Shown: one piece after another, positions 12,001 through 37,098 of the stretch
Position numbering within the stretch: position 1 is the first letter of the stretch
Layout of the letters: each line of letters begins with the position of its first letter
Assembly: GCF_026242055.1 (NCBI RefSeq)
Contig: NZ_JAPJDL010000023.1
Span: forward strand, 62,001-126,000
DNA length: 64,000 nt
Direction of reading: 5' to 3'
From: Lentzea sp. NEAU-D7
GTDB taxonomy: Bacteria > Actinomycetota > Actinomycetes > Mycobacteriales > Pseudonocardiaceae
The notes under the pieces: model-generated
Database searches by the model: none
What the model saw: the letters and a program-made list of their open reading frames with translations, nothing else
What the model was told of the DNA's origin: nothing
Translations under genes and position numbers: made by a program

Positions 12001-14518
12001 GGCGGACGAGCGCGACCCGGACGGCAAGCTCGTCGTGCTCACCCACCACGCGGTGCGGGTGCGCGGGTGCGACGAGGTCAGCCCGGTCACGGCCTCGGTC
12101 TGGGGTCTCATCCGCAGTGCCCAGGCGGAGAACCCCGGCCGGTTGGTGCTGCTGGACGCCTCCGAGCAGGACGTGGAACTGGCGCTCGCGCACCTCGGTG
12201 AGGAAACGCAGCTGGCGGTGCGCGACGGTGTCGTGCACGCCTGCCGCCTGGTCCGTGCGAGCAGCGCTCCGGAACTGGTCCCGCCGCCGGGTGAACGCGT
12301 CTGGCGGCTGGGCGCCCCGAGCGGGGAGGACCTGGACCAGTTCGCGTTCGAGCCCTTCCCGGAAGCCGCCGCACCGCTGGCGGCACGGGAGATCCGGATC
12401 GGCGTCCGTGCCGCGGGTGCCAGCTCCGGCGACGCCGGGATGGTCGGTCTCGAAGCCGCGGGCATCGTCGTGGAGGTGGGGGAGGAGGTCACGGACCTCC
12501 GCGTCGGCGACGCGGTGATGGGCTTGGTGCACAACGGTTTCGGTCCGGTCGTCCGCACCGATCGCGCGCTCGTCACCAAGGTTCCCCACTGGTGGACGTT
12601 CGAACAGGCGGCCTCCGTGCCGCGGGCGTTCCTGACCGCCTGGTACGCGCTGAACGACCTGGCCGGTCTGTCCGCGGGGGAGGCGGTGCTGGTCCACGGC
12701 GCGGCCGGCGACGTCGGCATGGCCGCTGTCCAGATCGCCCGCCACCTCGGTGCGGAGGTCTACGGCACGGCCGGTGAGGGCCAATGGGACGTCCTGCGCA
12801 CGGCGGGCCTGCCAGACAGCCGCATCGCCTCCTCGGACTTCGAGGAGCGATTCCTGGCCTCCAGCAACGGCCGCGGCGTCGACGTCGTCCTCAACGCGCT
12901 TCCCGGCGAGTCCACCGACGCGTCGGCCCGGCTGTTGCCGCGCGGTGGGCGATGGGTGGAAATGGTCAACGCCGATCTTCGCCCGACGAGCGATTTCGCA
13001 GGGCAGTATCCAGATGTGACTCACCGGGCGTGCCGCGTGACCGACGCGGACGCCGAACGGATCGCGGCGATGTGGGAGGAGCTGATCACGATGTTCGAGT
13101 CGGGTGTGCTCAACCCGTTGCCGATCCGGTCCTGGGACGTCCGCGAGGCTCCCGAGGCGGCCCGTTTCCTCGGCCACGCCGAGCACACCGGCAAGGTCGT
13201 GCTGACCGTGCCGCGGGTGCTCGACGCGAGCGGAACGGTTCTCGTCACCGGCGGTACCGGTGGCCTCGGCGCGGTTCTGGCCCGGCACCTGGTCACCGAG
13301 TTCGGCGTGCGGGACCTCGTTCTCGTGGGCCGGCGCGGCGTGGACGCGCCGGGCGCGGCGGAACTGGCCCGCGAACTGACCGGGCTGGGCGCCGAGGTCC
13401 GCGTCGCCGCGTGCGACGTGGCGAACCGGTCCGAACTGGAACACCTGCTGGACAGCATCCCGGTGCTGACCGGTGTGGTCCACGCGGCCGGCGTGCTCGA
13501 CGACGGCCTGTTCACCTCGATGACGCCGGACCGGCTGGAGAAGGTCCTGCGCCCCAAGGTGGACGCGGCCTGGAACCTGCACGAGCTGACCCGCGGGCGA
13601 GACCTGACGATGTTCGTCCTCTTCTCCTCGGCCGCGGGCGTGCTGGGCACGCCGGGCCAGGCGAACTACGCCGCGGCGAACACCTTCCTCGACGCGCTCG
13701 CCGAACACCGGCGCTCACTGGGCCTGCCCGCCTCGTCCCTGGCCTACGGCCTCTGGGCCGACGGCATGGGTGCGGCCACGGACGCCGGCCGGATGGCACG
13801 GGAGGGTTTCGGTGCGCTCACCGCGACCGAGGGCTTGGCGCTGTTCGACCTGGCCACGTCCATGGTGGCGCCGGCGACGGTGCCGATGAAGCTCGACGTG
13901 GCGAGGCTCAGGGCACTCGCCGAGACGGCCTCGGTTCCGCCGCTGCTGCGGGCACTGGTGCCGCCGCAGCGCGCCCGCCGGTCGGCCTCGGCCGACTCGG
14001 CCGGACAGGCGGACGAGCTGAAGCGGCGTCTGGCCGGGCTGTCCCAGGCCGATGCCCGGCAGGCGTTGCTGGCGGTGGTCCGCCGCCAGGCGGCGGCCGT
14101 CCTCGGTCACGCGGGGCCGGACACGATCGAGCCCGACCGGGCGTTCACCGACCTGGGCTTCGACTCGCTGACCGCGGTCGAGCTGCGCAACCAGCTCGGC
14201 GAGGCCACCGGCCTGCGCCTGCCGGCGACGCTGATCTTCGACTACCCGACTCCGGACGCCATGTCGGAGTTCCTCCAGGCCGAAGTGGTCCCCGCTGCCG
14301 CCACCGGAATATCCGGTGTGGACAGTGAGATCACCCACCTGGAGGCGGCGCTGTCGGCGCTCGACCCGGCGGACACCGACGGGGCCCGGGTGGAGACGAG
14401 GCTGCGCCAGCTGGTCGCGCTGTGGCGGGACAAGACCCGTGCGGGCACGGACGACCGGGCGGACATCGAGGCGGCCACCTTGGACGACATGTTCTCCCTG
14501 CTCGACAACGAACTCTGA
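2..14518 (+). CDS. Modular type I polyketide synthase, 5' end outside window (PKS-1)
   Basis: The frame is open to the first base, so the gene starts upstream; 4,838 residues are visible. The first ATG (base 71) is internal, because the AT motif GQGSQ is read before it (bases 47-61). Module A is AT-DH-KR-ACP (AT to ~1030, DH ~1070-1900, KR ~2325-2860, ACP ~3150-3380). Module B is KS (~3420-4690), AT (~4985-5975), DH (~6030-6840), KR (~7265-7860), ACP (~8080-8310). Module C is KS (~8350-9620), AT (~9915-10910), DH (~10965-11790), an ER-like region (~12280-13220), KR (~13230-13860), ACP (~14060-14280) and a C-terminal docking tail. All ATs carry GHSIGE and HAFH, predicting malonyl-CoA. DHs keep HxxxGxxxxP and HPALLDA. 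KRs have LDD, so B-type. The ER of module C looks dead. Predicted output is successive double bonds. Confidence 0.96.
4154..4263 (+). repeat. 110-bp exact repeat inside KS of module B (copy 1)
   Basis: This stretch is identical, base for base, to bases 9086-9195 in the KS of module C. It covers the conserved KS segment around the NQDG motif. Exact identity including third positions implies recent module duplication or gene conversion. Confidence 0.85.
4318..4330. repeat. Interrupted palindrome GTCCA-CAG-TGGAC
   Basis: Perfect 5-bp arms around a 3-bp spacer, read in the PKS frame as Ser-Thr-Val-Asp. Related copies occur at 9244, 11800, 15572, 23801, 28409 and 35506. Confidence 0.6.
9086..9195 (+). 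repeat. 110-bp exact repeat inside KS of module C (copy 2)
   Basis: Second copy of the 110-bp exact repeat that begins at 4154. Identity stops at a single C/A difference at the right edge. Confidence 0.85.
9244..9256. repeat. Interrupted palindrome GTCCA-CTG-TGGAC
   Basis: Perfect 5-bp arms and a 3-bp spacer, again read as Ser-Thr-Val-Asp but with a different Thr codon from the copy at 4318. Confidence 0.6.
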
Positions 14519-20957: not shown

Positions 20958-23900
20958 ATGCCCACCGAAGAGCAGTACGTCGACTACCTCAAACGAATGG
21001 CGGCTGACCTGCGGGAGAGCCGTCGGCAGCTGCGGGAGTCCGAGGAACGCCAGGCCGAGCCGATCGCGATCATCGCGATGAGCTGCCGCTACCCCGGCGA
21101 GGTCCGGTCGCCGCAGCAGCTGTGGGACCTCGTCAGCACCGGGGGCGACGCCGTCTCGCCGTTCCCCACCAACCGCGGCTGGGACCTGGACGGGCTCTAC
21201 GACCCGGACCCGGAGCGGCCGGGCACGACCTACGTCCGCGAAAGCGGCTTCCTGCACGACGCGGACGAGTTCGACGCGGAGCTGTTCGGCATCTCGCCGC
21301 GCGAGGCCGAGGCGACCGACCCGCAGCAGCGGCTGCTGCTGGAGACCGCGTGGGAGGCCGTCGAGAGCGCCGGCATCGACCCGGCCTCGCTCAAGGGCAG
21401 CGCCACCGGCGTGTTCGCCGGTGTCACGAACACCGAGTACGCCACCCGCCTCACCGCGGTGCCGGGGGAGTACGAGGGGTACCTCGCCACCGGGACCCTG
21501 GGCAGTGTGGTGTCCGGCCGGATCTCGTACGTGCTGGGCCTGCAGGGGCCGTCGGTGTCGATCGACACCGCCTGCTCGTCGTCGCTGGTGGCCCTGCACC
21601 TGGCCGCCCACTCGCTGCGGACGGGGGAGTCGACGCTGGCACTGGCGGGCGGGGTGACGGTCATGGCCAGCCCCGGCCCGTTCGTCGACTTCTCCCGCCA
21701 GCGCGGACTGGCCGCGAACGGCCGGTGCAAGCCGTTCGCCGCCGCCGCCGACGGCACGAACTGGGCGGAAGGCGCCGGCGTGCTGGTGCTGGAGCGGCTC
21801 TCCGACGCCCGGCGCAACGGCCACCCGGTGCTCGCGGTGATCCGCGGCTCCGCGGTGAACCAGGACGGCGCGTCGAACGGCCTGACCGCCCCGAACGGCC
21901 CGTCCCAGCAACGCGTGATCCGCCAGGCGCTGGACGGCGCGAGGCTGTCCCCGTCGGACGTGGACGCGGTCGAGGCGCACGGCACCGGCACGAAGCTCGG
22001 CGACCCCATCGAGGCCCAGGCCCTGCTGGCCACCTACGGCCAGGACCGCACCGAGCCGTTGTGGATCGGGTCGGTCAAGTCGAACATCGGGCACACGCAG
22101 TGCGCCGCGGGCGTCGCCGGGGTCATCAAGATGGTCGAGGCGATGCGGCACGGCGTCCTGCCGGCGAGCCTGCACGTCGACCGGCCGTCCGAGCACATCG
22201 ACTGGTCGGCCGGAACGATCTCGCTGCTCGCCGAGCAGCGGCCGTGGCCGGAGACGGGCAGGCCGCGCCGCGCGGGCGTGTCCTCGTTCGGCATCAGCGG
22301 TACCAACGCCCACGTCATCCTGGAACAGGCACCGGAAGAGCCGCTGCCGCCACGGGAGGTCCAGGCACCGGCCGTGGTGCCCTACGTCCTGTCGGGAGCC
22401 TCTCCTGCCGCGGTGCGCGCGCAGGCCGCGGCGCTGCTGCGCAGCGCGGACGAGGTCCCGAACGAGCCCGTGGACGTCGCGCTGTCGCTGGCCACCACCC
22501 GCGCGGCGATGGACCACCGCGCGGTCGTCGTCGGCGCCACCCCCGAGGAACTGACCGCCGGACTGCGCGCGGTGGCCGGCGGCGAGGCCGGGACGGTCAC
22601 CGGGTTCGCGACCGCCGGGAAACTGGCCGTGCTGTTCAGCGGCCAGGGCTCGCAGCGGATCGGCATGGGCCGCGAGCTGCATGACGCCTTCCCGGCCTTC
22701 GCCACCGCGTTCGACGAGGTCTGCGAGTACCTGCCGGGTGTGCGCGAGGTCGTGTTCGGCGACGACGCCGAAGTGCTGAACCGCACCGAGTTCGCCCAGC
22801 CCGCGCTGTTCGCCTTCGAGGTGGCGCTGTTCCGCCTGGTCACCTCGTGGGGTGTGGTCCCCGACCTGCTCGCGGGGCACTCGATCGGTGAGCTGGCCGC
22901 CGCCCACGTCGCGGGTGTGCTCTCCCTCGCCGACGCGGCGCGGCTGGTGCTGGCCCGGGGCCGCCTGATGCAGGCGCTGCCCGCCGGTGGGGCGATGGTC
23001 GCGGTCGAGGCGACCGAGGACGAGGTCCGCCCCCACCTGAGCGACGACGTGTGCCTCGCCGCGGTCAACGGCCCCCGTTCGGTGGTGCTGTCCGGAGCCG
23101 AGGAGGCCGTCCTCGCGGTGGCCGAGCGGTTCACCGACCGCCGCACCACGCGCCTGAGGGTCTCGCACGCCTTCCACTCCAGCCTGATGGACCCGATGCT
23201 GGCCGAGTTCGCTGAGGTCGCCGGTGACCTCACCTACGGCGAGCCCGCCATCCCGGTCGTCTCCACGCTGACCGGTGAGCTCGCCGAGCGGCTGACCGAC
23301 CCGCGGTACTGGGTCGAGCACGCCCGCGAGGCGGTGCGCTTCGCCGACGCCGTCGAGACCCTGCACAAGCGCGGCGTGACCGCGTTCCTCGAACTGGGAC
23401 CGGACGCCCCGCTGACCGCGATGGGCCGTTCCGCGCTGCCGGACGGCGTGGTGTTCGCCGCCTCCCAGCGCAAGGACCGCGATCCGGTCCACACCCTGGT
23501 CTCCGCGCTCGGCGCGGTGCACGTCCACGGCGTCGAGGTCGACTGGGCCGCCTACCTCGGTGGCACCGGCGCCCGTGTCGTCCCCCTGCCGACCTACCCG
23601 TTCCAGCGCCGCCGCTACTGGCTGGAGGACGCCGGGGACGTCACGGCGGGCACCGGTGGCGAGGACGCCCGGTTCTGGTCCGTCGTGGCGAGCGGCGACG
23701 CCGAGGAACTGGCCGCGGAGCTGGACCTGCCGAACGCGCAGGCCCCTCTCGGCGACCTCCTCCCGGCGCTGGCGCGCTGGCGCAGCTCCCGGGCGAACGA
23801 GTCCGAAGTGGACGCTTTGGGATATCGCGTGCACTGGAAGCAGTTCACGCCCGTGCAGGCGACGGCGTCCGGGCGCTGGCTGCTGGTGTCCTCACCGCGG

Positions 23901-26900
23901 TCCGGCGACTGGACCGACGCCGCCGCTGCGGCACTGCGGGGAGCCCAGGTCGAGCACGTGGTGCTCGACGCGCCGGACCAGGCGTCCGTGGCTACCGCAC
24001 TGGACGGTGTGCCGGCGTTCGACGGTGTGCTCTCCCTGGTCGGGCTGGACGAGCACGAGACCGGCGGCCTGTCCTTCGGCGCCGAGGCGACCCTGTCGCT
24101 GGTGCGGGAACTGGCGGCCCGCGAGGTCGAAGCTCCACTGTGGACGCTGACGAGCCAGGCCGTCGCCACCGGTCCGCACGAGGCGCCCGCCTCCGCGGTC
24201 CAGGCGCAGCTCTGGGGTTTCGGCCGGGCCGCCGCGCTGGAACACCCGCGGTCGTGGGGTGGGCTGGTCGACGTTCCGGCCGAGCCGTCCGATCGGGTCA
24301 GCGCGCTCCTCGGCGCCGTGGTCACGGGACCTCGTGGTGAGGACCAAGTGGCGATCCGCGCGACGGGTGCGTTCGGTCGTCGCCTGGCGCACGCCGAGAA
24401 CGCCGAGCCTGCGCGTTCCTGGAAGCCGCGCGGCACCGTCCTGGTGACCGGCGGCACCGGCGGTCTCGGCGGGGTGGTCGCCCGCTGGCTCGTCGAGACG
24501 GGCGCGGACCGCGTGGTGCTGGTCTCCCGGACCGGCGAGAACGCGCCAGGCGCCGAGTCCCTGCGGGAGGACCTGGGCGCCAAGGTCTCCATCGTCGCCT
24601 GCGACGTCGCTGACCGTGAGGCGCTCGCGAACGTCGTCGACGACGTCCGCGACGACCTGCGCGCCGTGTTCCACCTCGCGGGAGTCCTCGAAGTCGGGCC
24701 GATCGAGAAGATCGGCCGCAGTTCCTACGTGGACGCGCTGCGCGCCAAGGTCTCCGGCACGCGGAACCTCGAAGAGCTCACCGACGGGCTCGACCTGGAC
24801 GCCTTCGTGCTGTTCTCCTCGATCGCCGCGTCCGTCGGCAACCCCGCGCAGAGCGTGTACGGCGCCGCGAACGCCTACCTGGAAGCCGTCGCCCAGCAGC
24901 GCCGGTTCCGCGGTCTCCCCGCCACCTCCGTCGCCTGGGGTCGCTGGGGCGAGGTCGGCATGGGTGTCAGCGGGCAGGCGGACGCGCTGCTCAGCGACCT
25001 CGGAGTGCCTGCCATGGCACCGGAACTGGGCGTCCTCGCACTGCGACGCGCGCTCGGCCGGGACGAGACCGCGCTGACCGTGGCGGCGTTCGACTGGCCG
25101 AAGTTCGCACCACCGTTCGCCGCGCTGCGACCGAGCCCCCTGCTCGCCGACCTGCCTGAGGTCGTGGCGATCGCCGAGGCCGACGCGCGGCGTGCGGAGG
25201 AGGGCGCCGAGGTCACCACGGCCTGGCGGACGCGGCTTTCCGGCATGCCCCAGGCCGAGCGCGAGCGCGTGCTGCACCAGCTCGTGCTCACCCACACCTC
25301 CGCCGTGCTGGGCCACCAGGACGAGGTCAGCTCCCAGCAGCTGTTCACCAAGCTGGGCATCGACTCGCTCACCGCGGTCGAGCTGCGCGGCCGCCTCAAC
25401 GCCGAGACCGGCCTCGCGCTGCCGCCCACCATCGTCTTCGACCACCCGAGCCCGGCCGCCCTGGCCGCACACCTGCTCGCCGAGCTCGGCCCGCGGGAGC
25501 AGCCCTCGGCGACGAAGGCCGCCGTGCGCGCGAACACCGCACAGGGCCAGGAGATCGCCGTGGTCGGCATGTCCTGCCGCTTCGCCGGTGGCAGCGACAC
25601 GATCGACGAGTACTGGCAGAACCTCATGCAGGGCAAGGACCTCGTCAGCCTGGCCCCGGCGAACCGCTGGAACGCCGCCGACTACCTCGACCCCGACCGC
25701 ACCGCGCCGGGCAAGGCCTACACCCAGCACGGCGCGTTCGTCACCGACATCGCGGGCTGGGACGCCGGGTTCTTCGGGCTCTCGCCGCAGGAGGCGCGCC
25801 GCACCGACCCGAGCTTCCGGCTGCTGATGGAGCTGGTCTGGGAGGCGTTGGAGGACTCCTCGCTGACCGCGGAGGAACTGCGCGGCAGCCGCACCGGCGT
25901 GTTCGCCGGGCTGATCGACACCATCCAGTACAGCATGCGCCAGCTGGAGGTCGACGGTGCCGAGGCCGGGGACGACCCGTACTTCGGCCTGGGCAGCTCG
26001 CTGTCCGCGGCCGCCGGCCGGATCGCGCACCAGCTCGACCTGCGCGGTCCCTGCCTGACCGTGGACACCGCGTGCTCCTCCGCGCTCAGCGCCATGCACC
26101 TGGCCGTGCAGAGCCTGCGCCGCGGCGAGTGCGACATCGCGATCGTCGGCGCCTCCTCCACGATGATCAACCCGGAGGTGTTCGTCCAGTCCTGCAAGAT
26201 GAGCATGCTCGCCGCCGACGGCCGCACCAAAACCTTCGACGAGTCCGCCGACGGGTACGTGATCGGTGAGGGCGGCGGCGTGGTCGTCCTGCGCCGTGCC
26301 CAGGACGTCGAGCCGGGGCAGCGCACCCGTGCGCTGATCCGCGGCACGGCGACCAACCAGGACGGCCGCAGCAACGGTCTCACCGCGCCCAACCGGGCCG
26401 CGCAGATCGCGGTCATCCGCGCCGCCCACGCCGACGCGGGCGTGCGGACCGACGACATCGGCTACGTCGAGGCGCACGGCTCCGGCACGCAGCTCGGCGA
26501 CGCCATCGAGTTCACCGCCCTGCAGGAGGTGTTCGGCGAGCGCTCCGCGCCGGAGCCGCTGTACGTGGGCGCGGTCAAGTCCAACGTCGGCCACACCCTG
26601 GCCGCCGCCGGCATGGCCGGTCTCGTCAAGACCGTGCTCGCGCTGGAACACGGCGAGATCCCGGCCAACCTGAACATGACCACCCCCAACGCGGTCGTCA
26701 CCCTGGACGGTCCCGTCCGTCCCGTGCAGACCGCGATGCCCTTCCCCGCCGACTCCGACGGCGTGCTGCGAGCGGGCGTCAGCTCGTTCGGCTGGTCGGG
26801 CTCGAACGTCCACTTCGTACTCGAGCGTGCACCGCAGGCCCCGGCGCCGCGGCCGGGCTCACCGTGGCAGCTGCTCACGGTGTCCGGGCACAGCGAGTCC

Positions 26901-29753
26901 AGCCTGCGCGCGAACGCCGTGGCGCTGGCCGATCACCTGGAGGCGCACCCGGAGCTGGAACTGGCCGACGTCGCGCACACCACCCAGTCCGGGCGCAGCG
27001 CGCTGCCGGTGAGGGCCGCACTGCCGGTGCGCGACACCGCGGACGCCATCGCGTCCCTGCGGGCGGGCGTCACCGGGTCGGTCGTCGAGGAGAAGCGCCG
27101 TTTCGGTCTCGTCCTCCCGGCGGACCCCGGCGCCTGGCGCGGCACCACCGAGGAGCTGTACCGCACCGAACCGGTGTTCAGCGCCGCGATCGACGAGTGC
27201 GCCGGTCTGCTCCACGGGCGGGTGGACCTGCTGGGCGCGCTGTACGGCGAGGCGGAGGCCGACGAGCGTGCCGCCGTGTTCGCGGTCGAGTACGGCCTCG
27301 CGCGGCTGCTCGCCTCGCGGAACCTGGTTCCCGCCGTCGTGCTGGGCACCGGGGTGGGGGAGTGCGTCGCCGCGGTCGTGGGCGGAATGCTGTCCCCGGC
27401 CGACGGCCTGGCGCTGGCCCTGGACGGGACGGTGCCCGCCGCGGCGGCGGAGCCCGCGGTCACCGTCGTGTCACCGCGCACCGGTGCCGCGCTGACCGCG
27501 TCCGAGGTCCGTGACGCGGCCTACTGGGCCGGCGGGTCCGACCGGGTCGCCGACGGCCTCCTGGTGCTGGACCGGCACGCGGAGGTCCTCGTCGAGGCGG
27601 GTTTGAGCACTGACGCGGTGAACGGGTCCCCGGCGTCGACGCCGGTGGTCGGCCTGCCGCTGGAGCAAGGCCGCCGGTCGTGGCTCGCCGCGCTCGGTGC
27701 TCTGTGGGAGCACGGCGTTCCAGTGGACTGGGCGAGCGGTGCGGGTGAGGAACGCGTGTTCGTCCCGTTGCCCGCCTACCGCTTCCAGCGCACCCGCTAC
27801 TGGCCGGAGGTCGCGGCGCACACCGGTTCGGTGGCACCCGCGAGCACCGCCACCGCGGCGGCGAACGCCGGGATGCCGTCGTACGACGGCTTGAAGGCCC
27901 ACGTGCCCACCTGGCGGCGCGACAACAGCCGTCCGCTGCCCGCCACCGCGGGACCGCTGGTGCTCCTCGCCGAACCGGGCGAGTTCGCCGACAGGTTCGC
28001 CGCACTGGCCAGGGAAGCCGGGCACGAGGTCGTCCACGCGCACACCCGGCCGCAGGACCAGGAGGGCTATCGCGCTCTGCTGGCGGGCACCACCGGGGAA
28101 CCGGTGCGGATCGTGCACGCCTACGGTCTCGCCGACACCGGCCAGGAAAGCGGCTTCTACAGCCTGATGCGGCTCGGCAAGGCCATCGGCGCGGAGTGCG
28201 CCAACCGCCGCGTCGAGCTGCTCAGCCTCGCCGCGAACGGCTTCGAGGTCCTCGACGGCGACGCGAAGGACCCGCACGCCGCGACCATCGCGGCGATCAC
28301 GAGCGCCATCGCCGCGGAGTACCCCCTGGTCCGGTCGCAGTACGCCGACCTCGGACCGGACGGCGACCACGCCCGCCAGGCGCTGCGCGAGCTCGACGCC
28401 CTGGCGGCGTCCACTTCGGACACCGTGGACGGTGTCGGCGTGGTCGCGTGGCGGCACGGCCGCCGCTGGGTCCGCGACTTCGAGGTGGTCGGTCTGCCGG
28501 AGGTCGCCGACTCCGACGCCTGGCGCCCCGGCGGCGTCTACCTCATCACCGGCGGCCTGGGCGAGCTCGGCCTGGCCCTGGCGCGGCGGCTGGCCCCGCT
28601 CGGCACCCGGCTCGCGCTGGCCGGCCGGAAGGGCCTGCCGCCGGAGGAGACCTGGGACTCCTGGATCGCGGAGAAGGGCGTCAACGACAAGACCAGCGGC
28701 GTGCTCATGGCCGTGGCGGAGCTGCGTGCCCTGGGCGCCGAGGTGTTCGTCGCCCAGGCCGACGTCAGCGACCCCGCCCAGGTCGCCACGCTGGTGCGGG
28801 AGGTGCGGTCGCACTTCGGTGAGCTGCACGGCGTCGTGCACGCGGCGGGCGTCGCGGGTGGCGGCCTGCTGCAGACCAAGACCGAGGAGCAGGCGGCCGC
28901 GGTGCTCGCGCCGAAGGTGGCGGGCACGCTCGCCCTGGCCGACGCGCTGCGCGACGACCCGGTGGAACTGCTGGTGCTCTACTCGTCGGTGGCGAGCCTG
29001 ACCGTGGGCGTCGGCGCGACCGACTACTCGGCGGCGAACGCGTTCCTCGACTCCTTCGCGGTCGTGGAGGCCAACACGGGCGGGGTCGCCAAGCGCGTCG
29101 TCTCGGTGGCGTGGGGACCGTGGCAGCTCGACCCCTGGACGTCGGCGGGTCTCGCCGACTCGGCCGAGATGCAGGAGAGCTCCAAGCGGTTCCGCGAGGA
29201 GTTCGGCATCCCGACCGAGGAGGGGACCGAACTGCTGTCCCGCATCGTGGCCTCCGGCGAGACGCAGGTGGCGGTGCTGTCGCTGGAGCTGTCCGACGCG
29301 CTGGCCGCACTGTCGCAGCTCGACTCCCTCGACGCCCTCGTGGGCGGCGCGGCGGTCGACCTGTCCGACGACAAGCGCTATCCCCGTCCGGAGCTGCGCA
29401 CCCCGTACGTGGCACCGAGCACGCCGGCCGAGCAGCAGGTGGCCGAGATCTGGCAGGCCTGCCTGGGACTCGAGCAGGTGGGTGTCGACGACCGGTTCTT
29501 CGACCTCGGCGGCACCTCGCTGATCGGCCTGGTCGTGATCGGCCGCATCGGCAAGGAGCTCGGCGTCGAGCTGGCGCCGGCGATGTTGTTCGAGAAGCCG
29601 ACCATCGCCGAGTTCGCGACCCTGCTCGCCGCGCCGGAGACGGCCGCGGGACCGGACCTCGCGGACGTGGCCGAGGACGCGTCGGCCCGCGGTGAACGCC
29701 GCCGGGCGCGCGCCGGAGGCCTGCGCAGGCGCCAGGCCGGAACCCGAAGGTGA
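20958..29753 (+). CDS. Modular type I PKS, KS-AT-KR-ACP plus KS-AT(inactive)-KR-carrier (PKS-3)
   Basis: The protein has 2,931 residues. ATG 20958 follows an AGGAG site and an N-terminal docking helix. Module 1 has KS (Cys206), AT (Ser642 in GHSIGE, HAFH: malonyl), KR (~1160, Ser/Tyr/Asn present but no LDD) and ACP (Ser ~1470 in GIDSL). Module 2 belongs to another lineage. Its KS (Cys1706, HGSGT, NVGHT) looks active. Its AT remnant (~2035-2290) reads GTGVGE where GHSxGE is expected and has lost the subdomain that carries HAFH. The KR has nucleotide motif GGLGELG (~2530) and the carrier domain has GGTSL (Ser ~2854), as in peptidyl-carrier-like proteins. The C-terminus is an Arg-rich tail with no thioesterase. 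Module 2 must get its extender from another protein; the neighbouring KS-AT and hydroxymalonyl genes are the obvious source. Confidence 0.95.
24134..24144. repeat. Palindrome TCCACTGTGGA, out of phase with the other copies
   Basis: Same nucleotide core as the GTCCAnnnTGGAC family but read in another frame (Ala-Pro-Leu-Trp). This argues for conservation of the DNA motif rather than the peptide. Confidence 0.5.
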
Positions 29754-29760
29754 GGACCAA

Positions 29761-32547
29761 GTGACCACGCGAGAACGCGACACCAGCCACGACATCGCGA
29801 TCGTGGGCATGGCCGGGAACTTCCCCGGCGCTCCGGACATCGACAGGTTCTGGGCCGATCTGTGCGCGGGACGGGACGGGATCACGAGGATGAGCCCGGC
29901 CGAGCTGCTGGCGGCCGGTGTGCCGCGGCAGCTGGTGGACGATCCCGCTTTCGTCGCCGCGTCGGGCGTGCTGTCCGGCGTCGACCGGTTCGACGCCGGC
30001 CTGTTCGGCTTCAGCAGGTCCGACGCCGAGGTGGCCGACCCGCAGCACCGCCTGTTCCTCGAGTGCTCCTGGCACGCGCTGGAGGACGCGGGCATCGACC
30101 CCGGCCGCTTCGACGGCCTGGTCGGGGTGTTCGCGGGCGGTGCGCCGAGCACCTACCTGCTGTCCAACCTGCTGCAGAACGACCACGCCGTGCTCACCTA
30201 CGGGCCCGACCACCTCGTGCTGCAGAACGAGAAGGACCTGCTCCCGTCGCGGGTGTCCTACGCGCTCGACCTCACCGGTCCGTCGGTGAGCGTCCAGAGC
30301 TGCAGCTCGACCGCGCTCGCCGCGGTCGCCGCCGGCTGCGGCAGCCTGCTCGCCGGCGAGTCGGACGTGGTCGTCGCGGGCGCGGTCTCGGTGATCGTCC
30401 CGCAGCACCCCGGCTACCTCTACCACGAGGGCGGCGAGTTCTCCCCGGACGGCGTCAGCCGCGTCCTCGACGCCGGTGCCAACGGCAAGATCCCCGGCGA
30501 CGGCCTCGGCGTGGTCGTCCTGCGGAGGCTGGAGGACGCGCAGGCCGACGGGGACCGCATCTACGCGGTCATCCGCGGCTGGGCCGCGCTGCACGAGGGC
30601 AGGAACGGCCGCCAGGGGTTCGGCGTGCCCGGTGTCCCCGGGCAGACCGCCGTGATGGCCGAGGCGATGGCCGTGGCGGGCGTCGACCCCGCCGAGATCG
30701 ACCACGTCGAGGTGACCGCGATGGGCACGCCCTTCGGCGACGCCGTGGAGATCATGGCGCTGCAGAAGGTCTTCGGCGTGGACGGCGTCGAGCGGGTCAC
30801 GCTCGGCTCGACCGACGGCAACCTCGGCCACATCAACCAGGCGGGCGGGATCGCCCGGCTGATCAAGGCGGCTCTCGCGCTGCACCACGAGAAGCTGCCG
30901 CCCGCCGTGAACTTCTCCGCGCCGAACCCGCGGCTGGAGACCTCCGGCGACAGGCTCGCCGTGGTGACGGAGCTGACCGACTGGCCGCGGGGCGAACGGC
31001 CGCGGCTGGCCGGCGTCAACGCGCACGGCTATGGCGGCGCGGACGTCCACGTCGTCATCGAGGAGGCGCCGGCGGTGGAGGACGACGTGCGCCCGCCGGC
31101 GCGTCCGCACCAGCTGCTGGTCTGGTCGGCTCACACGGCAGAAGCGGCCGACGCCGCGACCACGAGGCTGGCCGCGGACGCCGCGCGGTGGGCGGATCCG
31201 GCGGATGCCGCCTACACGCTGCAGTGCGGCCGCAGGATGTTCGGCCACCGGCGCATGGCCGTCGTCTCGTCGAGCGCCGACGCGGCGGAGGCGCTGACCT
31301 CGCAGACCCGCGTGCTCGCCGAGAACGGTGCGAGCACGCGACGAGCCGGGTTCCTGCTGGCCGGCGTGGGGGAGCAGTACGACGGCATGGCCGGCGGGCT
31401 GTACGCCTCCGAACCGGTGTTCCGCGCGGCGATCGACGAGTGCGCCGAGCTGTTCCGCGAGCACCTCGGCTTCGACCCCGTCGCCCGCCTGGTCGGTGCC
31501 AGGAAAGCCGGCGGCGGAGGTCTGGCCGCCCTGCTCGGCCGCGCACCGGAAGCAGACACCGGCGATGGCGGGCCCGCGGACACGGTCGTCGTCCAGCCCG
31601 GCGTCTTCGCCGTCGACTACGCGCTGGGAAAGCTGATGACGGCCTGGGGCGTCGAGCCCTCGGTGATGGCGGGCTACAGCGTCGGCGAGTTCGCCACGGC
31701 GGCGCTCGCCGGCAGCCTGACCCTCCAGGAGGCCACCGCCCTGGTCGCCACCAGGGCCAAGCTGATCTCGGCGCTGCCGGCCGGGGCGATGGCCGCCGTG
31801 CCGCTGTCGGAGAGCGAGCTGACCGGGCTGGTCGGTGACCTCGGGGTCTTCGCCGTCGACGTCGCCGCGGTCAACGGTCCCCGCATGATCGTCGTCTCGG
31901 GCTCTCCCGAGGGCGTCGTCCAGCTCACCGAGAAGCTCGCCGCCGAGGGCGTGCCCGCCAGGCCGCTGCGGACCACCCACGCGTTCCACTCGCGGTCCCT
32001 GCGGCCGGTGGCGGCGGAGCTCACCGCCTGGGCGAGGCTGAACCTCAAGCCGCGTGCCCCCGAGACGCCGTACCTGTCCAACGTCACCGGACTGCCGATC
32101 ACCGAGAAGCAGCTCAAGGACCCGGGTTATTGGGCCGAGCACATGTGCCGCCCGGTGCAGTTCGCCACCATGATCGCCCACCTGGCAGCGGTTCGGCCGG
32201 ACACCGCGTTCGTCGAGCTCGGCGCGGGACAGTCGCTCGGCTCGATGTTCCGGGGACATCCCGACTTCCCGCAGAGGTCCTGGGCGCACCTCGTGCCCAC
32301 CCTTCCCGGTGAAGCGGATCCCCGGCAGGACACCGAGTCGGCGGCCGAGGCGCTCGGCAGGCTCTGGCTGTCCGGTGTGGACGTCGACTGGCACGCCTAC
32401 CAGTCCGGTCGCGGAGCCAGGAAGACGACCCTGCCGGGATACGCCTTCCAGCGCGACCGCTACTGGATCGAGCCCACCGCCCCGGGGTCCGAGACCGTGG
32501 TCCCGAGGGGCACCCGAGCGGCCGCCGAGACCGGCGGCACGCGCTGA
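29761..32547 (+). CDS. Free-standing KS-AT didomain protein (probable trans-acting acyltransferase)
   Basis: The protein has 928 residues. I chose GTG 29761, which has AAGGTGAGG upstream and a seven-base gap after the PKS-3 stop; ATG 29692 inside PKS-3 is the alternative. The KS half (~1-440) keeps Cys181 in SCSST and the NLGH histidine, but the HGTGT motif reads TAMGT, so its first catalytic His is missing. The AT half (~530-870) keeps Ser640 in GYSVGE and HAFH, so it should acylate. There is no KR, DH or carrier domain. Its place between a module with a dead AT and the hydroxymalonyl-ACP genes suggests that it moves hydroxymalonyl from the discrete ACP onto PKS-3 module 2, with the KS perhaps only a docking scaffold. 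That role is inference. Confidence 0.85.
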   Translation: MTTRERDTSHDIAIVGMAGNFPGAPDIDRFWADLCAGRDGITRMSPAELLAAGVPRQLVDDPAFVAASGVLSGVDRFDAGLFGFSRSDAEVADPQHRLFLECSWHALEDAGIDPGRFDGLVGVFAGGAPSTYLLSNLLQNDHAVLTYGPDHLVLQNEKDLLPSRVSYALDLTGPSVSVQSCSSTALAAVAAGCGSLLAGESDVVVAGAVSVIVPQHPGYLYHEGGEFSPDGVSRVLDAGANGKIPGDGLGVVVLRRLEDAQADGDRIYAVIRGWAALHEGRNGRQGFGVPGVPGQTAVMAEAMAVAGVDPAEIDHVEVTAMGTPFGDAVEIMALQKVFGVDGVERVTLGSTDGNLGHINQAGGIARLIKAALALHHEKLPPAVNFSAPNPRLETSGDRLAVVTELTDWPRGERPRLAGVNAHGYGGADVHVVIEEAPAVEDDVRPPARPHQLLVWSAHTAEAADAATTRLAADAARWADPADAAYTLQCGRRMFGHRRMAVVSSSADAAEALTSQTRVLAENGASTRRAGFLLAGVGEQYDGMAGGLYASEPVFRAAIDECAELFREHLGFDPVARLVGARKAGGGGLAALLGRAPEADTGDGGPADTVVVQPGVFAVDYALGKLMTAWGVEPSVMAGYSVGEFATAALAGSLTLQEATALVATRAKLISALPAGAMAAVPLSESELTGLVGDLGVFAVDVAAVNGPRMIVVSGSPEGVVQLTEKLAAEGVPARPLRTTHAFHSRSLRPVAAELTAWARLNLKPRAPETPYLSNVTGLPITEKQLKDPGYWAEHMCRPVQFATMIAHLAAVRPDTAFVELGAGQSLGSMFRGHPDFPQRSWAHLVPTLPGEADPRQDTESAAEALGRLWLSGVDVDWHAYQSGRGARKTTLPGYAFQRDRYWIEPTAPGSETVVPRGTRAAAETGGTR

Positions 32548-32655
32548 CCGAACACCGCTTCGCCGAACCCGGCTTCGTCGTGCCCGCGCACGCCCGGAGC
32601 CGGCGTGGCCGAGCCGTTTCCCTTCCCCCATGAGCAATGCAGTCGAGGAGTAGCG

Positions 32656-33507
32656 ATGACGAACGTCGGAGTTGTCGGAGCCGGAGTGATGGGCACCGGC
32701 GTCGCACAGGACCTGGCCCAGCACGGGCACAGCGTGGTCCTGGTGGACAACGACCCGGACGCGCTGGACGCGGCGCTCGCCCGGATCGAGCTGGAGTGCC
32801 GCATGAGCCGGATGCTCGGCGGCCCGCAGGTCGACGCCGAGGCGGTGCTCGCGTCGATCACCACCGGCACCTCGCTCGAACTGCTCGCCGAGACCGAGGT
32901 CGTGATCGAGAACATCACCGAGAACTGGGACCTCAAGAGCGCGCTGTACGCGCAGCTCGACGTGGTCTGCAAGGCGGACACCGTGTTCGTCGCGAACACG
33001 TCGGCGATCCCGATCACGAAGATCGCCGCTCTCACCTCGCGCCCGGACAAGGTGATGGGCGTGCACTTCATGAACCCGGTGCCGATGAAGGCCGCGTGCG
33101 AGTTCATCCCCGGCTACCACACCAGTGAGCAGACCAAGGACGTCGTCCGCGCGTTGCTGGACTCGGTCGGCAAGAAGTCGATCCCGGTCAACGACGCCCC
33201 CGGGTTCGTGTCCAACCGCGTGCTCATGCTGACCGTCAACGAAGCGGCCTTCCTGGTCCACGAGGGCGTCGCCGACGCGAAGACCGTCGACGAGGTGTTC
33301 CGCAGCTGTTTCGGCCACCCGATGGGACCGCTGGAAACGGCCGACCTCATCGGGGTCGACACGATCCTGTACAGCGTCGAGGTGCTCTACGAGCAGTTCA
33401 ACGACAGCAAGTACCGCCCCTGCCCGCTGCTCAAGAAGATGACCGACGCCGGTCTGCACGGGCGCAAGAGCGGCAAGGGTTTCTACGTCTACCAGAGCAT
33501 GGGCTGA
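32656..33507 (+). CDS. 3-hydroxyacyl-CoA dehydrogenase family protein, FkbK-like (hydroxymalonyl-ACP pathway)
   Basis: The protein has 283 residues. ATG 32656 has GAGGAG upstream. The N-terminus has the NAD-binding motif GAGVMGTG, followed by NTSAIPI, HFMNPVP and DAPGFVSNRVL, all typical of the 3-hydroxyacyl-CoA dehydrogenase family. In FK520/ansamitocin-type pathways the equivalent enzyme oxidises glyceryl-ACP at C3 to the aldehyde stage on the way to hydroxymalonyl-ACP. The next three genes supply the other steps, so the pathway assignment rests on both family and context. A general fatty-acid dehydrogenase is possible but unlikely here. Confidence 0.9.
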   Translation: MTNVGVVGAGVMGTGVAQDLAQHGHSVVLVDNDPDALDAALARIELECRMSRMLGGPQVDAEAVLASITTGTSLELLAETEVVIENITENWDLKSALYAQLDVVCKADTVFVANTSAIPITKIAALTSRPDKVMGVHFMNPVPMKAACEFIPGYHTSEQTKDVVRALLDSVGKKSIPVNDAPGFVSNRVLMLTVNEAAFLVHEGVADAKTVDEVFRSCFGHPMGPLETADLIGVDTILYSVEVLYEQFNDSKYRPCPLLKKMTDAGLHGRKSGKGFYVYQSMG

Positions 33508-33552: not shown

Positions 33553-33804
33553 ATGTCGAACGACGCCCGCACCCAGATCCGCACCTTCATCACGACCAAG
33601 TTCCCGGACGTGACCTTCTCCGACGAGGAGGACATCTTCGCGCTCGGCTTCGTGAACTCCCTGTTCGCGATGGAGCTGGTCATGTTCATCGAGAAGGCGT
33701 TCGGTACCCGCATCCCGAACGAGGAGCTCCACCTGGGCAACTTCCGGTCCGTCGCGCTGATGGCCGACCTGGTGGCGCGGCAGACGTCCGCCGCCGTGGG
33801 CTGA
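33553..33804 (+). CDS. Discrete acyl carrier protein, FkbJ-like
   Basis: The 83-residue acidic protein has the ACP fold pattern. The phosphopantetheine serine lies in GFVNSLFAMEL, where ordinary PKS ACPs have GFDSL; this variant is common in carrier proteins of methoxy/hydroxymalonyl pathways. It should carry the glyceryl group loaded by the FkbH protein and hold it while the two dehydrogenases convert it to hydroxymalonyl-ACP. GAAAGG lies upstream of the ATG. The gene is 45 bp after the dehydrogenase gene and 11 bp before the acyl-CoA dehydrogenase gene, in one operon. Confidence 0.92.
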   Translation: MSNDARTQIRTFITTKFPDVTFSDEEDIFALGFVNSLFAMELVMFIEKAFGTRIPNEELHLGNFRSVALMADLVARQTSAAVG

Positions 33805-33815
33805 GCGGAGCGGTG

Positions 33816-34955
33816 ATGAAAGCGGAGACGCGGAGCGGACCGGCCGGCCTCGCCGAGGTCAGGCGGTTCGTCGATCTGGAGATCGCACCACACGCCAACG
33901 CCTTCGAGCGGGCGGAGTGGATCCCGCGGGAGGTCCTGTCACGCGTGGCCGAACTCGACCTGTGGGCGCCGTTCCTGCCCTCGGAGTTCGGCGGCGCGGG
34001 CATGGACATGGTCACGCTCGGCCGCGTGCACGAGGAGATCGGCCGGGGCTGTTCCTCCTTGCGCAGCCTGCTGACCGTGCACTCGATGGTCAGCGCGTCG
34101 GTGCACCGCTGGGGCGACCAGGCACAGCAGGAGAAGTGGCTGCGGGCACTCGCCTGCGGCGAGAAGCTCGGCGCGTTCTGCCTGACCGAACCCGACCGCA
34201 GTGGCAGCGACGCCACCGCGGAAGGCACCACGGCGGTCCGGGACCAGGACGGGTGGGTCCTCAACGGCACCAAGAAGTGGATCACCGGCGGTCAGGTCGC
34301 CGACCTCTTCATGGTGTTCGCGACGACCGGGAGCGGCATGTGCACCTTCCTGGTCGAGGCCGACCGGCCGGGTGTCCGCGTCACCGCGCTGCCGCACGTC
34401 GCGGGCACCACGGCGAGCATGCTCGCCCTGGTCGAGTTCACCGACGTGCGGCTGGAACCGTCCGCTCTGCTCGGCCCGCAGGGCTGGGCGGCGGGGACGG
34501 TCATGACCAACGCCCTGGGCCTGGGCCGCTACAGCGTGGCGTGCGGCGCGGTCGGCATCATCCGAGCCGCGATCGACGCCTGCGCGGAGTACACGTCGGT
34601 CCGGTCGGCCGGCGGTGTTCCGTTGCGGGACCTGCCCCACGTGCGGCAGATGATGAGCGGCATGGTGACGGCCCGCGACGCGGGACGGCTGCTGTGCGAG
34701 AGGGCGGGCGCGCTCAGCGACGCGGGCGACCCGGCCACGATCATGGCCACGTGGGTGGCGAAGTACCACGCCTCCAAGGCGGCCGTGCAGGCCGCGGGAG
34801 ACGCCGTCCAGATCCACGGTGCCAACGGGTTCAGCCCTGAGCACCCGGTCGGGCGGTTGTACCGGGACAGCAAGGTCACCGAGGTCATCGAAGGCAGCAC
34901 CCAGGTGCAGGAGCTGACGATCGCGGCCGAGGCATATCGAGAGGTGGCGCAGTGA
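33816..34955 (+). CDS. Acyl-CoA/acyl-ACP dehydrogenase, FkbI-like (hydroxymalonyl-ACP pathway)
   Basis: This 379-residue flavoprotein of the acyl-CoA dehydrogenase family shows FCLTEPDRSGSD in the flavin/substrate region and a C-terminal VIEGSTQVQ segment that holds the usual catalytic glutamate. In methoxymalonyl pathways the homologous enzyme completes oxidation of the glyceryl carbon to the carboxylate. ATG 33816 sits behind GCGGAG; GTG 33813 directly before it is an equal alternative. The stop codon overlaps the GTG start of the FkbH gene (GTGA), so translation is probably coupled. Confidence 0.92.
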   Translation: MKAETRSGPAGLAEVRRFVDLEIAPHANAFERAEWIPREVLSRVAELDLWAPFLPSEFGGAGMDMVTLGRVHEEIGRGCSSLRSLLTVHSMVSASVHRWGDQAQQEKWLRALACGEKLGAFCLTEPDRSGSDATAEGTTAVRDQDGWVLNGTKKWITGGQVADLFMVFATTGSGMCTFLVEADRPGVRVTALPHVAGTTASMLALVEFTDVRLEPSALLGPQGWAAGTVMTNALGLGRYSVACGAVGIIRAAIDACAEYTSVRSAGGVPLRDLPHVRQMMSGMVTARDAGRLLCERAGALSDAGDPATIMATWVAKYHASKAAVQAAGDAVQIHGANGFSPEHPVGRLYRDSKVTEVIEGSTQVQELTIAAEAYREVAQ

Positions 34956-36013
34956 CGCAGACGGACGTCGTCGCTTCGGTCAAGCCGAAGCGCGGCCGCA
35001 TCAAGTGCGTGGTGTGGGACCTGGACAACACCCTGTGGGACGGCACCCTGCTCGAGGACAGCGCGGTGCGGGTGCGTCCCGAGGTCGTGGAGGAGATCAA
35101 ACGGCTCGACGCCCTCGGCGTTCTGCACTCGGTGGCCAGCCGCAACGACCACGACGCCGCCATGGCGCGGTTGAAGGTGGAAGGCCTCGACGAGTACTTC
35201 CTGTACCCGCAGATCAACTGGAACCCCAAGTCCCAGTCGGTCGAGCGGATCGCCAAGGAGCTCAACATCGGGCTGGACGCCATCGCGTTCGTCGACGACC
35301 AGCCGTTCGAGCTGGAGGAGGTCGCGCACGCGCTGCCCGCGGTGAAGACGGTCGACACCGCGCGGATCGCCACGGAGCTGGCCTCGGAGGAGTTCCAGCC
35401 GAGGTTCGTCACCGACGAGTCCCGCGTGCGCCGCGACCTCTACCGCGCGGCCGTGGTGCGTGACCAGGCCGAGCTCGACTACACGGGCACCAACGAGGCA
35501 TTCCTGTCCACTTTGGACATGACGTTCACGATCAGCCGGGCCAAGCGGGAGGACCTGCAGCGCGCGGAGGAGCTGACCGTCCGCACCAACCAGCTGAACT
35601 CGACCGGCCGCACGTACTCCTACGACGAGCTCGACGCGCTGCGCACCTCGCCGGACCACCTGCTGCTGGTCGCGTCGCTGACCGACAAGTACGGCGGCTA
35701 CGGCAAGATCGGCCTCGCGCTCGTGGAGCGCGGGCAGCCCGCGTGGCACCTGCGGATGATGCTGATGTCGTGCCGCGTGATGGCCCGCGGTGTCGGCACG
35801 GTGCTGCTCAACCACGTGATGCGGCTGGCGAAGGCGGACGGTGCCCGGTTGCGGGCGGACTTCGTCGAGACCGGGCGGAACCGGGTGATGTACGTGACCT
35901 ACGCGTTCGCGGGCTTCAGCGAGATCTCCCGCGACGACAACCGCCTGGTGCTGGAGTCCGGCCTCGACCAGATCCAGCCGCCTCCCGCGTACCTGAAGGT
36001 GAACGTCGAATGA
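34952..36013 (+). CDS. FkbH-like HAD-family glyceryl-ACP synthase
   Basis: The protein has 353 residues. The N-terminal HAD domain has DLDNTLWDG (DxDxT) close to the start, and the C-terminal half looks like a GNAT-type fold. FkbH proteins take 1,3-bisphosphoglycerate, dephosphorylate it and load a glyceryl group onto a dedicated ACP. Here that ACP is encoded two genes upstream. The GTG start overlaps the previous stop, and its own stop overlaps the thioesterase ATG, so three genes are translationally linked. One copy of the palindrome family (GTCCACTTTGGAC, 35506-35518) lies inside and uses a rare TTG leucine codon. FkbH also feeds tetronate pathways, but the two dehydrogenases favour hydroxymalonyl. 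Confidence 0.94.
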   Translation: MTQTDVVASVKPKRGRIKCVVWDLDNTLWDGTLLEDSAVRVRPEVVEEIKRLDALGVLHSVASRNDHDAAMARLKVEGLDEYFLYPQINWNPKSQSVERIAKELNIGLDAIAFVDDQPFELEEVAHALPAVKTVDTARIATELASEEFQPRFVTDESRVRRDLYRAAVVRDQAELDYTGTNEAFLSTLDMTFTISRAKREDLQRAEELTVRTNQLNSTGRTYSYDELDALRTSPDHLLLVASLTDKYGGYGKIGLALVERGQPAWHLRMMLMSCRVMARGVGTVLLNHVMRLAKADGARLRADFVETGRNRVMYVTYAFAGFSEISRDDNRLVLESGLDQIQPPPAYLKVNVE

Positions 36014-36753
36014 CCACGGCGAGCATCACCCGGTCCTGGCTTCCCTACGGCAGCACCGGAACCGGGACCCGGTTGTTCTGCTTCCCGCACGCGGGTGCCA
36101 GCGCGGCGGTGTACGCCGGCTGGCGCACCGCGGGCAACGGCGACCCGGCGATCTGCCCGGTGCAGCTCCCCGGTCGCGCGGCACGCGGGCGGGAGACCCC
36201 GCACCACGACCCCGAAGCGCTGGCCGACGACGTGATCAGCGGTCTGGGCGCGGAGCTCACCGGCGACTACGCCCTGTTCGGGCACAGCGTCGGAGCCCTG
36301 GTCGCCTACCTGGTCGCCCGGCGGATCGTCGAGCGGGGCGGGCAGCCACCCCGGCACCTGTTCGTGTCGGGCCGGCCCGCGCCGCAGCTGCCCAACACCC
36401 GCAGGGAACTGCGCGCGCTGCCCACCGACGACCTCGTCGGGGAGCTGCGGGCGCTCGGTGGCCTCCCGGACGTGCTGCTGAAGGAACGGTCGCTGCTGGA
36501 GCTGTTCCTGCCGCTGCTGCGCGCGGACATGTCGGTGAACGAGACCTACCGGCACGTGCCCGGACCGCCGCTGCCGATCCCCCTGACGGTGTTCGGCGGG
36601 ACCGACGACCCCCGCGCCGAGCACGCCGAACTGGCCGCGTGGCAGGAGCTGTCCGCGGATTCGGCGCTGGTCACCTACCCCGGTGGCCACTTCTACCTGG
36701 AAGACCGGGTGCCGGAGATGCTCGAGGTCGTCCGCGGCAGGATGGCCGGCTGA
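36010..36753 (+). CDS. Type II (editing) thioesterase
   Basis: This 247-residue alpha/beta hydrolase has the signature of stand-alone PKS/NRPS thioesterases: FCFPHAGASAAVY near the N-terminus, nucleophile Ser in GHSVG, a late Asp in GGTDDP and His in YPGGHFYL. Such enzymes remove stalled or wrong acyl groups from carrier domains. PKS-3 ends without its own thioesterase, so a role in product release cannot be excluded. The ATG overlaps the FkbH stop codon. Confidence 0.93.
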   Translation: MTTASITRSWLPYGSTGTGTRLFCFPHAGASAAVYAGWRTAGNGDPAICPVQLPGRAARGRETPHHDPEALADDVISGLGAELTGDYALFGHSVGALVAYLVARRIVERGGQPPRHLFVSGRPAPQLPNTRRELRALPTDDLVGELRALGGLPDVLLKERSLLELFLPLLRADMSVNETYRHVPGPPLPIPLTVFGGTDDPRAEHAELAAWQELSADSALVTYPGGHFYLEDRVPEMLEVVRGRMAG

Positions 36754-36831: not shown

Positions 36832-37098
36832 ATGACCGAGGGTGTGCAGACCAAGAGCGTGAACGACATCGCTGTCGTCGCCGACGGCAGTTCCGGCCAC
36901 CTCGTCGACGCGGTGCTGCACGGCGGCCCCGCCGACCTGCCGCAGGAGACGCGCGCACAGCGGGTGCACCGCGAGGAGAAGAAGGTCAAGATCCCGCACT
37001 ACGGCGGGCACGAGCACTTCGAACGGGACGGCGCCGCGCTCGACGGGCGCACCGAGGTGGTGTTCCGCTGGATCGGACGCACCCGCGTCGCCGAGTGA
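36832..37098 (+). CDS. Small conserved cluster protein (DUF5988-like), function unknown
   Basis: The protein has 88 residues and no signal peptide or membrane segment. It contains VLHGGPADLP, VKIPHYGGHEHFER and a C-terminal VVFRWIGRTRVAE. From memory this matches small DUF5988-type proteins found in actinomycete PKS/NRPS clusters, but I could not check this. It is the last gene of the PKS operon, 78 bp after the thioesterase and just before a strong terminator hairpin. The pattern of His, Gly and aromatic residues does not reveal a function. Confidence 0.8.
   Translation: MTEGVQTKSVNDIAVVADGSSGHLVDAVLHGGPADLPQETRAQRVHREEKKVKIPHYGGHEHFERDGAALDGRTEVVFRWIGRTRVAE

Follow-up and report, generated by a model that had tools for sequence, protein, structure and literature searches.

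The closest described system is the octacosamicin pathway of Amycolatopsis azurea DSM 43854, a strain given as the octacosamicin producer in PMC13122635 and whose product is the subject of a biosynthesis study with a title pointing to release by amidation (Liao et al., ChemBioChem 2024, e202300590, a reference in PMC13122635). Here, a window of 64,000 nucleotides from Lentzea sp. NEAU-D7 (contig NZ_JAPJDL010000023.1, positions 62,001 to 126,000) was analysed with regard to the second module of the polyketide synthase (PKS) PKS-3, which has a dead acyltransferase (AT), and to the didomain protein of ketosynthase (KS) and AT encoded directly downstream. Liao and coworkers reportedly describe a line that starts from 4-guanidinobutyryl, uses hydroxymalonyl as an extender and ends in a non-canonical module without thioesterase (TE) and acyl carrier protein (ACP).

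The corresponding A. azurea locus (L055), which we infer to be the octacosamicin (oca) cluster, has the same gene order as the window, with identities of 84% for the module-2 KS, 62% for the AT remnant of this module and 77% and 70% for the KS and the AT of the didomain. Both loci possess genes for a 3-hydroxyacyl-CoA dehydrogenase (HADH), a discrete ACP, an acyl-CoA dehydrogenase (ACAD) and an FkbH-like protein, and both have genes for an amine oxidase and a VinK-like AT at the start of the line, whereas the amidohydrolase encoded there in Lentzea sp. NEAU-D7 had no match (E <= 1e-6) in the stretches of A. azurea and A. oliviviridis that were compared. The first-pass annotation of the stretch had held that no described system has this layout. 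This claim falls, since A. azurea DSM 43854 has the same layout at 62-84% identity and the octacosamicin pathway was, by its title, published in 2024.

The layout is thus already present in a published pathway, and the present analysis adds the dead KS, the reciprocal decay of two modules with its likely stages, and the spread of the arrangement; a chain-length argument moreover suggests that the terminal unit does not extend the chain. The AT of the didomain probably loads hydroxymalonyl in trans onto the ACP of PKS-3 module 2, with the dead KS serving as a platform, so that the two proteins would form one split extension module. PKS-3 module 2 and the KS-AT protein would then be two once-complete neighbours that decayed reciprocally into one module on two proteins.

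PKS-3 module 2 and the KS-AT didomain protein

The features of the two proteins are as follows (KR, ketoreductase):
20958-29753, + strand: PKS-3, KS-AT-KR-ACP followed by KS-(dead AT)-KR-ACP (Pfam domains, motifs)
25578-26852, + strand: module-2 KS with its catalytic Cys, His and Lys in place (active-site alignment)
27048-27827, + strand: module-2 AT remnant, GTGVGE at 27345-27362, HAFH subdomain deleted (alignment, AF2 model)
27828-29297, + strand: module-2 KR region, motif YSS...DYSAAN (motif)
29358-29657, + strand: module-2 ACP (LGGTSL), proposed hydroxymalonyl acceptor (Pfam PP-binding, motif)
29658-29750, + strand: basic C-terminal tail of PKS-3, RGxRRR (in all 26 loci examined)
29761-32547, + strand: KS-AT didomain protein, starting with a GTG 7 codons upstream of the KS (likely start; mechanical open reading frame from 29692)
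29782-31101, + strand: dead KS of the didomain (alignment of KS active sites)
31282-32544, + strand: intact didomain AT, GYSVGE at 31672-31689, HAFH at 31978-31989 (alignment, motifs)

For comparison, homologues were searched in genome contigs, which yielded 74 loci. The KS alignment comprised 124 stretches, of which the rows L001-L037, L055, L069 and the window were examined, and 16 loci (the window, L001-L012, L019, L055 and L069) carry the didomain.

Pfam matches to KS, AT, KR and ACP were obtained in both PKS-3 modules. In the AT of module 2, GTGVGE stands in place of the expected GHSxGE and the nucleophilic Ser is replaced by Gly, as the first-pass annotation had noticed; its start at 27342 takes in the preceding Leu. 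The spacing from this motif to the HAFH column is 25 residues in the remnant versus 85-93 (one 126) among 105 intact ATs from the compared loci, and the remnant contributes no HAFH to the AT alignment of these loci, which bears out the earlier claim that the HAFH subdomain is deleted. The exchange of Ser for Gly was found in all 14 didomain loci with a readable remnant and in four of four related loci (L013-L016), and in two further didomain loci (L011, L012) the entire module-2 AT is gone. This recurrence rules out a sequencing slip. Motif loss together with a deletion may stem from faulty assembly when a PKS gene is repetitive and rich in GC, but the same loss in separately sequenced species and reading frames that are open without stops leave an assembly error or a pseudogene only a negligible probability. 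A model of the remnant calculated with AlphaFold2 (AF2) from 13 sequences reached a mean pLDDT of 70.8 and matches AT structures, and the core of the remnant therefore looks folded.

The didomain likely starts at the GTG at 29761, and counted from there the nucleophile of its AT is Ser640 (codon 31678-31680). With this Ser and HAFH in place the AT is intact, as had been claimed for this "free KS-AT"; the KS, on the other hand, is by its residues dead, and the protein would be a relic of the next module rather than a working KS-AT. The catalytic Cys of this KS is replaced by Ser at 30304-30306 (QSCSST versus QSYCST in relatives with complete modules), the His of HGTGT by Thr at 30715-30717 (VTAMGT) and the Lys of KxNxGH by Asp at 30814-30816, while the second His is retained (30829-30831). 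The Cys to Ser exchange and the loss of the HGTGT His are common to all 16 didomain loci, and the exchange of Lys for Asp is found in 14 of them, with Lys kept in two Allokutzneria loci. A Cys one residue early (QSCS) occurs in 14 of the 16 KSs, the two Allokutzneria loci being the exceptions; all 16 share the second His and the Ser in the nucleophile column. Moreover, no Pfam match to an ACP was obtained in the didomain protein, which thus has neither the active KS residues nor the ACP of a canonical extension module. The AF2 model of the didomain (mean pLDDT 48.1) was too poor for reading the KS active site.

Selection was estimated as dN/dS (Nei-Gojobori) for 15 pairs, not independent of each other, from 6 close genomes. 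The dead KS is constrained about as firmly as a live KS, with a value of 0.214 versus 0.221 and 0.152 for two live KSs. Values of 0.223 and 0.283 were obtained for the didomain AT and the module-1 AT; that of the AT remnant (0.359) is near that of HADH (0.351), so that the remnant value alone is no proof of relaxation. By their motifs the two proteins are complementary: module 2 has those of KS, KR and ACP without an AT, versus an apparently live AT alone in the didomain protein.

The basic tail of PKS-3 with RGxRRR was present in all 26 loci examined, including ten related loci that do not belong to the didomain group, and could serve to dock the protein that follows. It may represent the old contact between PKS-3 and its successor, retained to bring the AT to the ACP. 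Missing docking helices had been considered as an argument against chain transfer between the two proteins; this argument was dropped, since relatives with complete modules share the short junction and the basic tail, which makes the absence of such helices uninformative either way.

Hydroxymalonyl-ACP genes and the proposed split module

Downstream of the didomain lie the genes that had been assigned to hydroxymalonyl-ACP formation in the first-pass annotation, an assignment borne out by family matches, of which that of the small ACP is weak. They are listed together with the starter genes upstream of the window:
32653-33507, + strand: HADH, hydroxymalonyl-ACP pathway (NCBIfam)
33553-33804, + strand: discrete ACP, proposed hydroxymalonyl carrier (weak NCBIfam match below the family cut-off)
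33813-34955, + strand: ACAD-like enzyme, hydroxymalonyl-ACP pathway (NCBIfam)
34952-36013, + strand: FkbH-like protein (TIGR01686, 285.7 bits, above cut-off)
36010-36753, + strand: type II thioesterase-like protein (open reading frame named by eye)
28821-32533 of the whole contig (C16), upstream of the window: amidohydrolase, amine oxidase and VinK-like AT, preceding the first PKS gene

In all 16 didomain loci the four hydroxymalonyl genes follow a didomain without KR or ACP, with a homologue of the discrete ACP in place in each; the thioesterase-like protein has a homologue in A. azurea (66%). From the KS-AT protein to 36753 the assigned open reading frames leave no space for an O-methyltransferase, which, given what we take to be the enzymes of the two pathways, favours hydroxymalonyl rather than methoxymalonyl as extender. 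A small DUF5988 protein is encoded at 36832-37098, with homologues of 76-90% in five of the 15 other didomain loci (L001-L004, L007).

In zwittermicin biosynthesis, GYS is found in the ATs of ZmaA and ZmaF, which use ACP-linked extenders, and GHS in ATs for CoA-linked extenders (PMC4207774). The comparison with these ATs that had been proposed for the stretch revealed GYS in the didomain AT of all 16 didomain loci, and the AT of ZmaA (4qbu) is among its relatives of solved structure. Within the cluster, GYS is confined to the didomain AT: the 10 intact cis ATs all have GHS, and the VinK-like discrete AT has GSSFGE. The idea of a hybrid system, in which cis-AT modules end in one module fed in trans, thus stands with respect to the cis-AT line, the last module with its dead AT and the singular GYS, and fails with respect to a working KS-AT fusion. 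A trans-AT PKS whose AT-less modules share a discrete AT was rejected as a description, with 10 of the 11 extending modules having an intact cis AT.

As judged from family functions, HADH, ACAD and the FkbH-like protein would build hydroxymalonyl on the discrete ACP. In the central step, the didomain AT would move hydroxymalonyl from this carrier to the module-2 ACP in trans. The last C-C bond would then be formed by the module-2 KS, with no extension afterwards because the didomain KS has lost its residues and because of the chain length of octacosamicin. The dead KS would act as a folded platform, perhaps as partner of the RGxRRR tail of PKS-3, in a contact that may have been inherited from the time when this KS received the chain.

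Two other ATs could stand in for that of the didomain. If one of the cis ATs loaded malonyl onto the module-2 ACP, the didomain would be a relic and the hydroxymalonyl genes would serve something else. Loading across modules within one protein has been reported for aureothin (PMC9899208), and the module-1 AT of PKS-3, which is intact and lies on the same chain, could in principle load this ACP. This reading is unlikely in view of the didomain and pathway genes kept in 16 of 16 loci, dN/dS values like those of live domains and the lack of a cis AT with GYS. Alternatively, the module-2 ACP could receive hydroxymalonyl from the VinK-like AT. This protein, a free AT matching PF21124 and PF00698, has its nucleophile in place, it has homologues in A. 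azurea, A. oliviviridis and L. californiensis, and VinK itself acts between carrier proteins. However, it lacks GYS, the didomain would have no role despite its conservation, and the gene sits with the starter genes beside a first PKS that begins with an ACP and has no AT. Starter loading by the VinK-like AT is suggested by this position, and amidohydrolase, amine oxidase and VinK-like AT would presumably fit a guanidino starter (4-guanidinobutyryl); its service to module 2 is accordingly held to be improbable.

Relatives and likely stages of decay

Outside the didomain group, the module-2 AT is intact in all 15 readable loci among L018-L037. A likely intermediate arrangement is found in L013-L016 (two Streptomyces, two Actinophytocola), in which the module-2 AT is dead and, in L014-L016, a complete module follows; the contig of L013 ends within the AT of that module. 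Of the 16 didomain loci, finally, 14 have a dead module-2 AT and two have lost it by deletion, and the KS-AT alone follows.

The KS and AT trees that had been proposed for the stretch were calculated as quick trees with SH-aLRT support only. In the KS tree (58 of 124 rows, chosen by the author and including no trans-AT KSs) the didomain KS joins the KS of the module that directly follows module 2 in the relatives (SH-aLRT 99). The AT tree (60 of 177 chosen rows, in which truncated rows may attract each other) places the didomain AT likewise with the first module after module 2 (96), together with L013-L016 (100), and unites the dead ATs of both groups in one set of 11 rows (99). This is read as a single death of the module-2 AT, after which the next module lost its KR, its ACP and the activity of its KS. 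The relatives likely preserve the earlier stages, one with intact modules and one in which a complete module still follows the dead-AT module 2.

AT loss has spread further in the clusters of L014-L016. In the Actinophytocola loci L015 (about 2877-4396) and L016 (about 3569-4419) the module preceding the dead-AT module likewise has a dead AT or none, and no AT aligned with a later third-module KS of L014 (19074), L015 (20582) and L016 (19490).

A profile of the AT remnant, by which loci without any remnant escape detection, matched in 22 of 390 family genomes at E <= 1e-40 and in 19 at E <= 8.7e-123. In each of the 19 strong-match genomes, a set that shares members with the named loci and is thus no independent sample, the contig of the remnant carries the didomain a short way downstream, again with an intact AT and the motifs of a dead KS. 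As for the other genomes matched by the profile, G047 encodes a KS-AT that keeps the HGTGT His in a 3224-aa frame near the remnant match, G133 has KS-AT matches on another contig only and G024 has none. A second, solitary KS-AT didomain with 68-70% identity to that of the window was found in G379 (contig C1; L118) and G380 (contig C81; L117), which are probably the Sciscionella genomes of L009 and L010. In these solitary didomains the HGTGT His is absent and the AT motifs are intact, and no PKS module or hydroxymalonyl gene was found in 20 kb (about 10 kb upstream, 7 kb downstream); the link between didomain and pathway genes is therefore not absolute. In addition, Roseobacter-type bacteria (L043-L045, L047-L052, L060, L064, L070) possess a conserved KS-AT-KR-ACP-like locus whose KS has about 40% identity to that of the didomain.

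Chain length, release and known systems

Besides the didomain, 12 KSs were counted on one contig in A. oliviviridis and 3 + 9 on two contigs in A. azurea, the module order of the latter being taken from A. oliviviridis, while the cluster of the window and that of L. californiensis have 11 each. A C4 starter and 12 C2 units give 28 carbons, matching the name 'octacosa'. Compared with the 12 extending modules of A. azurea, the line of Lentzea sp. NEAU-D7 is, from its gene content, of the octacosamicin type with one module fewer; 11 extending KSs point to a shorter congener, not to octacosamicin itself, and a 26-carbon chain is predicted.

For A. azurea, C31H52N4O9 with [M+H]+ 625.38 was calculated from the reductive domains plus N-hydroxyguanidine, glycine and one hydroxyketone, the last three being assumed. 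Octacosamicins are reported at m/z 625 and 639, with the ion type unstated in the excerpt (PMC13122635). Under the same assumptions a 13th extension gives 685.40 or 669.41, and a product without hydroxymalonyl 609.39. The mass fit supports the extension count and little more. For the line of Lentzea sp. NEAU-D7, 579.34 or 581.35 is predicted. Its module-8 enoylreductase (about 12287-13213 of the window, 74287-75213 of C16) has no GGVG, as in L. californiensis, whereas A. azurea has GGVG; one more double bond is thus possible in the product.

These counts bear on the reading of the KS-AT protein as a genuine terminal module that carries out one more extension with a borrowed ACP. The protein does occupy the place of a terminal module, where relatives with complete modules share the RGxRRR tail, and the early Cys (QSCS, 14/16 loci) arguably could act. 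Nevertheless, all 16 loci have Ser in the Cys column and lack the HGTGT His, 14 of them have Asp in place of Lys, the protein has no ACP, and in Amycolatopsis 12 other KSs already account for 28 carbons and a 13th would miss 625.38. This reading is therefore very improbable, and the didomain was dropped as a candidate working extension module.

No TE domain was noticed in the PKS proteins, and by analogy with octacosamicin release may occur by amidation. It could be catalysed by the didomain KS itself in the manner of CalA3, which would be compatible with trans loading by its AT. In favour of this are a last PKS unit without an ACP, an amidated product according to the octacosamicin title, and two residues that do not vary among the 16 loci, namely the second His and the Ser that replaces the Cys. 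Amidation by CalA3 was abolished when C197, H332, H372 or K367 was mutated (PMC10006239). By the author's positional mapping, however, the counterparts of C197 and H332 are replaced in all 16 didomain KSs and that of K367 in 14; CalA3 is, moreover, the mirror image, with a live KS and a likely inactive AT. With three of the four required residues replaced in the window, this candidate was left weak and is considered doubtful. In a bifunctional variant, to which we also give little credence, a Ser-type acyltransferase activity of the KS would hand the finished PKS-3 chain to glycine while the AT feeds hydroxymalonyl. If true, this Ser-type reuse would account for chain release and would be a mode of action new for a KS.

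Several points weigh against hydroxymalonyl transfer by the didomain AT, besides the intact module-1 AT and the free VinK-like AT with its nucleophile in place. The RXR carrier motif, in which ATs for ACP-linked extenders are expected to have hydrophobic residues at both Arg positions, reads Pro-Ala-Arg in the didomain AT versus Arg-Thr-Thr or Arg-Thr-Lys in the cis ATs of the window. It is only half changed, since in all 16 loci the first position has lost its charge to Pro and the third is Arg. HAFH is also found in ZmaK, an AT for malonyl-CoA (PMC4207774); the hydroxymalonyl assignment hence rests on GYS and the gene neighbourhood. The dN/dS of HADH is close to that of the AT remnant, and the solitary didomains L117 and L118 have no hydroxymalonyl genes in 20 kb. 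The mass fit was partly chosen, the degenerate dehydratase (DH) of A. azurea module 10 being taken as inactive, and a nominal mass is compatible with other formulas. Trans transfer by the didomain AT, which would follow from motifs, gene order and conservation, is still regarded as the probable course.

On this reading, the terminal unit of octacosamicin would be the missing AT of the preceding module and not an extension module, and loading and release become separable questions. The surviving stages suggest a route by which a cis-AT line is locally converted to trans-AT loading: one AT dies, the AT of the next module takes over, and KS activity, KR and ACP are then shed. The locus would thus offer a natural design for supplying hydroxymalonyl to one chosen module.

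A galbonolide locus of Streptomyces galbus, in which KS-type genes presumably lie beside methoxymalonyl-ACP genes, was kept as a lead only. A cis-AT module served by the relic of its neighbour was not found in the titles and abstract openings searched, which leave most subscription journals uncovered. The didomain AT resembles two zwittermicin ATs, ZmaA-AT and ZmaF, in its GYS (PMC4207774), and with these and OzmC of oxazolomycin it shares the supply of an ACP-linked extender (PMC4207774, PMC6164871). ZmaF and OzmC, however, are discrete ATs (PMC4207774, PMC6164871), whereas the AT of the window is carried by a dead-KS didomain that appears to derive from the neighbouring module. CalA3 of calcimycin resembles the didomain as a last PKS unit without an ACP in a line released by amidation, but has a live KS and an AT, DH and KR that are likely inactive (PMC10006239), the reverse of the apparently dead KS and intact AT found here. 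The aureothin and azalomycin F lines likewise have modules that lack a domain and rely on that of another module (PMC9899208); in contrast to these, the helper module of the present locus appears to have shrunk to a KS-AT with a dead KS.

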